From Spirochaetota bacterium (GTDB lineage Bacteria > Spirochaetota > Spirochaetia > Treponematales > UBA12059): DNA of 32,585 nucleotides. Both the position numbers and the translations under genes were made by a program. The stretch is taken from the NCBI GenBank assembly GCA_022703215.1, contig JAKLEE010000005.1, positions 1 through 32,585 on the forward strand, given 5' to 3'. Positions 8,066 to 8,748 of the stretch are shown here, piece after piece (the stretch's first letter is position 1; each line of letters opens with the position of its first letter). The notes beneath the pieces are model-generated. The model worked only from the letters and a program-made list of their open reading frames with translations, was not told where the DNA came from and made no database searches.

Positions 8066-8120
8066 GAGCCCAGTGTACCACGGCTTTTCCGCAGCGCCGC
8101 CACCCCGGAACCCGCGCCCA

Positions 8121-8687
8121 GTCGCCGAAGGCGACGCGATTCAATCCGTTTCCCTGCAAAGCCGCGATGCCCGACCCACCCAGAAAGCAAAAGCGCACCC
8201 CAAAGGATGCGGCTTCCACCTACAGATATATCGGTCGGGCATCGCGGACTTACAGTTCGCGCTCCGGCCGCAGGCCGATGCGCGAACCCTTACAATAAAT
8301 TCCCTTGAAAAGCCGCGATGCCCGACCCCACAAGACAGCTGAAGCCGCACCCCAAAGGATGCGGCCCTCGCTTGCGGTATTCTCGGTCGGGCATCGCGGA
8401 TTTACCCGTCGCCGAAGGCGACGCCTTACAATAAATTTCCTTGAAAAAACCGCGATGCCCGACCCACCCAGAAAGCAAAAGCGCACCCCAAAGGATGCGG
8501 CCCTCGCTTGCGGTATTCTCGGTCGGGCATCGCGGACTTACAGTTCGCGCTCCGGCCGAAGGCCGATGCGCGAACCCTTACAATAAATTTCCTTGAAAAG
8601 CCGCGATGCCCGACCCCGCCAGAAAGCAAAAGCCGCACCCCAAAGGATGCGGCCCTCGCTTGCGGTAATCTTGGTCGGGCATCGCGG
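8121..8687. repeat. Tandem hairpin repeat array built on the tRNA-Pro 3' end
   Basis: Four A elements each have perfect 15-bp arms, CCGCGATGCCCGACC and its complement: 8162-8247, 8313-8399, 8450-8535 and 8601-8687. Unit starts are 151, 137 and 151 bp apart. Each encloses a GCACCCCAAAGGATGC inner hairpin (8194-8209 in the first). The right arm of the fourth is the 3' end of the tRNA-Pro gene. B hairpins alternate with them: TTCGCGC...GCGCGAA at 8256-8286 and 8544-8574, and the simpler GTCGCC-GAA-GGCGAC type at 8121-8135 and 8407-8423. A conserved linker, CTTACAATAAATT, follows each complete B element. On the minus strand the first three units repeat the last 18 nt of the tRNA body, perfectly in two and with one change in one. 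Open frames across the array are repeat translations, not genes. Confidence 0.9.
8441..8535 (-). terminator. Terminator-like hairpin within the repeat array
   Basis: Read on the minus strand, the A element at 8535-8450 is a 15-bp perfect stem followed directly by TTTTTT (8449-8444). Sister elements end in CTTTTC or CTTTGC. Any of them could stop transcription coming out of the tRNA-Pro gene before it reaches the 329-aa gene at 8065. Confidence 0.5.
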
Positions 8688-8748
8688 ACTCGAACCGCGG
8701 ACCCCAAGTCCCCCAGACTTGTACGCTAACCACCTGCGCTAATGCCCG
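8672..8748 (-). tRNA. tRNA-Pro (anticodon GGG)
   Basis: The cloverleaf reads on the minus strand from 8748. The acceptor arms CGGGCAT and ATGCCCG pair fully, including the C1-G72 pair typical of bacterial tRNA-Pro. The D stem is GCGC/GCGT. The anticodon stem is CAAGT/ACTTG with loop CTGGGGG, giving anticodon GGG. The variable loop is GGGTC and the T arm is CGCGG-TTCGAGT-CCGCG. The discriminator A is followed by an encoded CCA (8674-8672), 77 nt in all. The CCA is not present in the repeat copies of the tRNA tail downstream, which read CCG. Confidence 0.95.

Follow-up and report, generated by a model that had tools for sequence, protein, structure and literature searches.

Palindromic repeats with gene-end duplication at a spirochaete tRNA-Pro gene: a candidate family of small mobile elements

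The stretch of DNA analysed here (the window, 32,585 nt of contig JAKLEE010000005.1 from a Spirochaetota bacterium) carries a tandem array 3' of a tRNA-Pro(GGG) gene, in which copies of the tRNA tail alternate with inverted copies and with a small core hairpin. This core belongs to a dispersed, structured, palindromic repeat that sits at gene ends and is associated with duplication of the gene end. We read the array, with a probability of roughly 0.6, as tandem copies of a mobile element that is small, palindromic and non-coding, termed here a gene-end palindrome. What looked like an odd array of tail copies at one tRNA becomes one instance of a dispersed family with a rule: the core stands at a gene end and that end is duplicated. 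In part of the family only, the gene boundary is also copied in inverse.

The window's genome (G000) is a draft assembly of 2.97 Mb in 533 contigs. A search with the formate-tetrahydrofolate ligase encoded in the window gave Spirochaetota MAGs as its nearest matches. Tandem Repeats Finder located the array at 8121-8688 (period 288, 2.0 copies, score 929; also period 152, 3.7 copies), in agreement with a preliminary description made from the sequence alone. The 288-bp super-period comprises two units because short (50 nt) and long (66 nt) cores alternate. ARAGORN and Rfam placed the tRNA-Pro gene at 8672/8675-8748 on the minus strand. Four blocks of the form X-E-X' lie 3' of it and alternate with a core hairpin of 50-66 nt, three cores being intact and one decayed. 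Read on the minus strand, X (CCGCGATGCCCGACC) is the 15-nt tRNA tail and X' (GGTCGGGCATCGCGG) its exact inverse. The E part of each block is a terminator-like hairpin, reading GCCGCATCCTTTGGGGTGCGGC in the first and third blocks. The linker between blocks has the form CTTTTCAAGGAAATTTATTGTA-hairpin-TGTAAGT, in alternating long and short versions. The features are listed below, with scores from R1, a covariance model built from 15 aligned core copies.

8672-8748, minus strand: tRNA-Pro, anticodon GGG (ARAGORN, Rfam); positions 8673-8687 of its tail are the X of block 1
8601-8687, minus strand: block 1, X-E-X', made up of the tRNA tail, a terminator-like hairpin (8632-8653) and X' (8601-8615)
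8536-8600, minus strand: core 1, long form, CTTTTCAAGGAAATTTATTGTA - GC hairpin - TGTAAGT (R1, 61.2 bits)
8450-8535, minus strand: block 2, with X at 8521-8535, E, and X' at 8450-8464
8400-8449, minus strand: core 2, short form, the best R1 match (73.2 bits)
8313-8399, minus strand: block 3, with X at 8385-8399, E, and X' at 8313-8327
8248-8312, minus strand: core 3, long form (R1, 57.4 bits)
8162-8247, minus strand: block 4, with X at 8233-8247, E, and X' at 8162-8176
8120-8161, minus strand: core 4, decayed, at the array end with no further tail copy (partial R1 match 8120-8153, 26.6 bits)

All four tail copies and all four inverted copies are exact and alternate along the array, each hairpin enclosing 56-57 nt. 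The 15-bp hairpins of the preliminary description, and its alternation of inner hairpins and linkers with tail hairpins, were thereby reproduced. Several of its details required correction. Unit length is 136-152 bp rather than ~137-151 bp. One of the four exact tail copies is the tRNA's own, and one copy reads AATCC, not AGTCC. The CCA reported as lacking from the copies is more precisely a difference between ...GACCG in the array and ...GACCA in the tRNA. Folding of both the X-E-X' and the core hairpins far surpasses that of dinucleotide shuffles (z -6.3 to -8.8). An assembly artefact, which would have undone the earlier account, is unlikely because the orthologous locus of G002, another species of the genus assembled into about 20 contigs, is built alike around its own tRNA sequence.

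The array is not the only home of the core. A search of the genome of the window for the 15-mer tail gave no other exact occurrence, and pieces of the linker were found far from tRNA-Pro in a search of 59 relatives. Copies away from tRNA-Pro, which the preliminary description proposed to look for, do exist for the core. The first linker-like loci that were read lay beside tRNA-Cys, tRNA-Ala and tRNA-Val, and at the ends of tuf and a B12-binding OAM-type gene. R1 detected cores in 15 of the 23 genomes of the family (E<=0.05) and in 35 of 244 genomes, or 20 of 82 genera, of the order (E<=0.001). Across a phylum sample of 296 genomes, matches were confined to this order (E<=1e-4). Within the window's own genome, R1 matched the array and one more locus, at the 5' end of uvrB (C489:3976-4024). 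A search for plasmid-borne relatives gave no match.

The fixed part of the element, the 50-66-nt core, has an outer stem and a GC-rich inner hairpin; a conserved AAGGAAATTTATTGTA, for the most part unpaired, lies on one side. Base changes in the core are compensated across loci (86.7% of cells paired). The covariation score reached 0.467, whereas slid structures gave 0.10 or less, and 176 cells were doubly changed compared with 64 in shuffles. A 3-bp mini-hairpin in the conserved loop was 89% paired; it is not claimed here, as its covariation did not exceed that of shuffles. In genus g5 a fixed outer stem (GCATCGCA/TGCGATA) is common, with further GC-rich hairpins adjoining the core. The earlier phrase "family of mobile palindromes" is thus supported in outline, the linker being a conserved structured hairpin over many loci, genera and families.

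Cores cluster at gene ends. A tRNA lies within 400 nt of 23 of the 60 core loci fetched, where chance was roughly estimated to give 1-2%. These tRNAs include Pro, Cys, Ala, Val, Gly, Lys, Met, Leu and Thr, together with a Ser/Arg cluster. Most other cores stand at the ends of protein genes, among them tuf, uvrB (5' end), groEL, aspS and clpX, as well as glutamate-synthase-like, thiolase, CoA-ligase-like and OAM-type genes, some named by reading their C- or N-terminal sequence and others backed by Pfam. A repeat that targets or arose from the tRNA end, as first proposed, is accordingly too narrow a view, since the core also occurs at tuf, uvrB, groEL, clpX and aspS with the end of that gene. 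Genera g1 (that of the window), g5 and g9 share a site around codons 11-15 of uvrB, and the OAM-type and CoA-ligase-like genes each have a site common to g5 and family f4. A separate observation concerns three Treponema denticola-like genomes (G173, G067 and G024; loci L203, L207 and L208), in which the core lies inside RHS-like repeat genes. In G067 and G024 it appears by eye to be in frame, directly after a small CAGCCC-GGGCTG hairpin.

Direct duplication of the flank was seen around 44 of 67 cores, above all 30 shuffles, and the duplicated piece is generally the gene's end. Aligned lengths were 21-160 nt, mostly above 40, at 75-100% identity. A significant inverted arm was present at 15 of the 67 cores and nearly always touched the core. 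The order gene-X-E-X'-core-X-E holds in the window's genus and at several f4 loci. Here X-E is the gene end, including the terminator for tRNA and tuf and the start codon for uvrB, and X' is the gene boundary inverted. At tRNA-Pro, X' follows the host tRNA, with ATCGCGG in G000, ATCCCGG in G002 and AACCCGG in the relative G001. The tRNA-Pro loci of G000 and G002 are apparently orthologous, having the same neighbours. Identity between blocks is 83-94% within G000 and 85-97% within G002, compared with 72-79% between the two, indicating concerted evolution. The simplest reading is that arrays turn over by recombination between direct repeats.

Comparison of occupied and empty sites suggests which copy is new. 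The uvrB start of G001 is uninterrupted, and its upstream flank (GGGTGAGGATGTTCGCGCCGCGG) matches the flanks of the distal copies in G000 and G002 (GGGTCTGGATGTTCGCGCCGCGG and GGTTGAGGATGTTCGCGCCGCGG). The proximal, working copy in the latter two genomes adjoins another flank, which offers a good ribosome site. Genus g9 behaves likewise: G010, which is empty, agrees with G017 in the flank on the distal side. In G002 the tuf duplication extends to the T-run of the terminator, and G000 and G001 are empty there. These pairs indicate that the inserted unit supplies the gene end and displaces the old one. For uvrB, as judged from aligned flanks, the distal gene end is shown to be the displaced original and the proximal working end to have come with the insert. 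The distal gene copy of G000 is still nearly identical although its flank differs, a pattern at odds with plain target duplication and later drift. This leaves re-insertion of the unit together with a gene end, or spread of the allele through homologous recombination.

Two further kinds of locus were noted. Loci L119, L122, L124 and L125 and most g5 loci (L160-L176, L183) hold another GC-rich element, distinct from the core, at or close to the core position. It sits between the inverted and direct tail copies and often forms hairpins with CAGGATG loops (ACAGGATGT), resembling the CsrA/RsmA binding consensus. At L119 (G010), L120 (G015), L121 (G051), L123 (G016) and L112 (G002), a complete tRNA-Pro is preceded by the initial ~25 nt of another, broken tRNA-Pro gene, the remainder of which lies downstream in L119, L120 and L123. 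The acceptor stem of the complete tRNA is extended by an inverted repeat, for example AGATTTTTTGGT-tRNA-ACCGAAAAATCT, and L119 has an outer TCGTCACG/CGTGACGA repeat. These loci look like insertions that brought a full replacement tRNA.

We consider it probable that the core is mobile, or was in the past. We propose that the core moves or moved as a hairpin, in single-stranded or extruded DNA. Insertion inside a conserved gene would persist only if a gene end came along with the unit, as it does with integrative elements that target tRNA genes, and such selection would explain why insertions in conserved genes are seen where that end is re-supplied. X' would arise by fold-back copying of the gene boundary from the hairpin, for which X' to the left and X to the right of the core is the arrangement expected. 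Recombination between direct repeats would thereafter lengthen or shorten the arrays and keep them homogeneous. This mechanism, with its fold-back and re-supply steps, is tentative and in our judgement has about one chance in three of being right as drawn.

Several points weigh against reading the array as a run of a mobile element. Movement was not observed, and mobility of the cores is deduced from sequence. The full architecture is not universal, since 23 of 67 cores have no significant flank duplication and most g5 loci have no X' touching the core. Where different genera or families share a site, in uvrB, the OAM-like gene and the CoA-ligase-like gene, the arrays could be ancient and inherited instead of the product of repeated insertion. 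At uvrB the proximal flank does not reproduce the original one; allele spread by homologous recombination would explain this, and plain target-site duplication does not. Finally, neither the Y1 transposase, nor the integron integrase, nor the reverse transcriptase is present in all core-rich genomes. Possible agents are an enzyme since lost, leaving old copies behind, or host recombination and repair as the main driver.

Other explanations were weighed against the gene-end palindrome. The repeats could be kept for function as RNA, the tRNA-Pro trailer being a structured transcript for processing or attenuation, or a small RNA (sRNA) resembling RtT. The strong pairing with covariation and the terminator-like hairpin in every unit are consistent with this, as is the annotated sRNA (rttR) that the tyrT repeat of Escherichia coli yields. 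Nevertheless, cores occur in either orientation to the gene, on the same strand at 11 loci and the opposite strand at 30 by our tally, and also at the 5' end of uvrB. Orientation of this kind points to an element acting as DNA rather than as trailer RNA, and the tRNA trailer processing device of the preliminary description is not supported for the same reasons. The core inside an RHS-like gene, apparently in frame (G024/G067), does not suit a trailer either. As to known RNA families, Rfam returned nothing but tRNA above threshold, the matches below it being implausible. We consider a functional RNA unlikely.

Membership of the repetitive extragenic palindromic (REP) sequences is a further candidate that we doubt strongly. 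These palindromes would be moved on single-stranded hairpins by a Y1 (HUH) transposase, the REP-associated tyrosine transposase (RAYT). The small imperfect palindrome, its gene-end siting and the in-frame cases recall REPs and Rickettsia palindromic elements (RPE), and 33 of 59 relatives, G000-G002 among them, have Y1 genes. The transposase does not, however, track the core as the earlier proposal would predict, as no Y1 gene was found in G006, G013, G020 or G017, which carry 7, 6, 5 and 2 cores, respectively. The GTAG tag is present in 11 of 70 full-length cores and CGTC in 23 of 70, with no constant foot of the hairpin. We also know of no REP that brings a gene-end copy.

Local tandem duplication alone would dispense with a mobile element, polymerase slippage or a template switch in the terminator hairpin of the tRNA having copied the tail and its inverse. 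The array is indeed tandem, homogeneous within each genome and different between species, and its hairpins favour template switching. Yet the same structured core stands beside unrelated genes at about 60 fetched loci in many genera, and slippage at one tRNA cannot supply a core that is dispersed. Local duplication is a good explanation of array growth once one core is present, and on its own a poor bet for the whole. Least probable is target-primed, retrotransposon-like insertion, in which the long duplication would stem from a staggered nick and X' from fold-back of complementary DNA: it formally yields gene-X-E-X'-core-X-E in a single event, but no reverse transcriptase (PF00078) was found in G000, G001, G002, G006, G013, G016 or G020, the domain occurs in just 3 of 23 family genomes and in none of the window's genus, and the proximal flank of uvrB does not copy the original one.

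Several consequences follow. Duplication of the gene end within the insert leaves the gene whole, which offers a reason why essential genes can serve as insertion sites. Small elements can in this way swap the start or the terminator of essential genes. The family also provides many natural pairs of occupied and empty sites that could be used to work out the reaction.

Among known systems, phages and integrative and conjugative elements that target tRNA genes preserve gene function by bringing in a gene-end copy, and the end they displace comes to lie distally. The present unit differs in its size (about 100-150 bp), its lack of any gene, its many different host genes, and its hairpin core and inverted copy. 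Compared with miniature inverted-repeat transposable elements, the duplications here are long, with limits that coincide with functional gene boundaries; a longer parent element was not seen, no systematic search for one having been made. Integron cassette arrays (attC) are similar in having structured sites with variable stems set in arrays. Integron integrases scored above the curated cut-off in 23 of 59 relatives (for example G002:C13:6929-7870 and G016:C4:1340-2281) and are common in the order; R1 found no convincing core at four integrase loci. The attC-like repeats beside the G024 integrase are of the ordinary CTAACA...TGTTAG type, unlike the core, and an integron attC array was rejected as a reading. 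A match to the TD-2 sRNA family was noted near this integron region (L246:2295-2391).

REPs, the REPINs related to them and the RAYT transposases are among the systems closest in kind, as small dispersed imperfect palindromes (PMC3733652, PMC3116915). CGTC-type REPs have been reported in Spirochaetes, and REPs have also been reported inside DNA-repair genes (PMC3733652). The core is likewise a small, dispersed, imperfect palindrome. It departs from them in having neither a constant GTAG/CGTC tag nor a consistent Y1 association, and in showing gene-end duplication and a host-matched inverted copy of the boundary. RPEs are palindromes that can lie within reading frames, and the cores that appear by eye to be in frame in two genomes recall them. 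Unlike RPEs, the core prefers gene ends and duplicates them, a comparison made by description and not with RPE consensus sequences. We found no account of a gene-end palindrome family in the open-access literature, which is weak evidence of novelty.

A close parallel in layout is the tyrT-tyrV locus of E. coli K-12 (RtT sRNA, tpr). There, 178-bp tandem units with exact 19-nt tail copies lie 3' of the tRNA, as units with copies of the tRNA 3' end do in the spirochaete array, which gave no RtT match above threshold in Rfam. Each E. coli unit has a 10-nt inverted tail copy (GGGGAAGGAT), then a GC-rich palindromic stretch, then the next tail copy. This inverted copy is shorter than the spirochaete X', and 4 of 1000 shuffles do as well. 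Every E. coli place listed falls under an RtT feature, with 1 to 9 places per genome (median 2), whereas the spirochaete core stands at many genes. R1 gave no match in the tyrT array, and kinship between its linker and the second spirochaete element was not above shuffles. The two arrays share architecture, not sequence. It is possible, though we hold it with well under even confidence, that gene-less palindromes of this kind constitute a new class of mobile DNA, settling in the ends of essential genes, bringing a replacement end and rebuilding the outer stem from the host gene at each site, with the tyrT repeat as an independent case of the same process. The rule found in the spirochaete family, of a core at a duplicated gene end, offers a general reading of that long-known E. 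coli repeat, given the inverted tail copy in each of its units.
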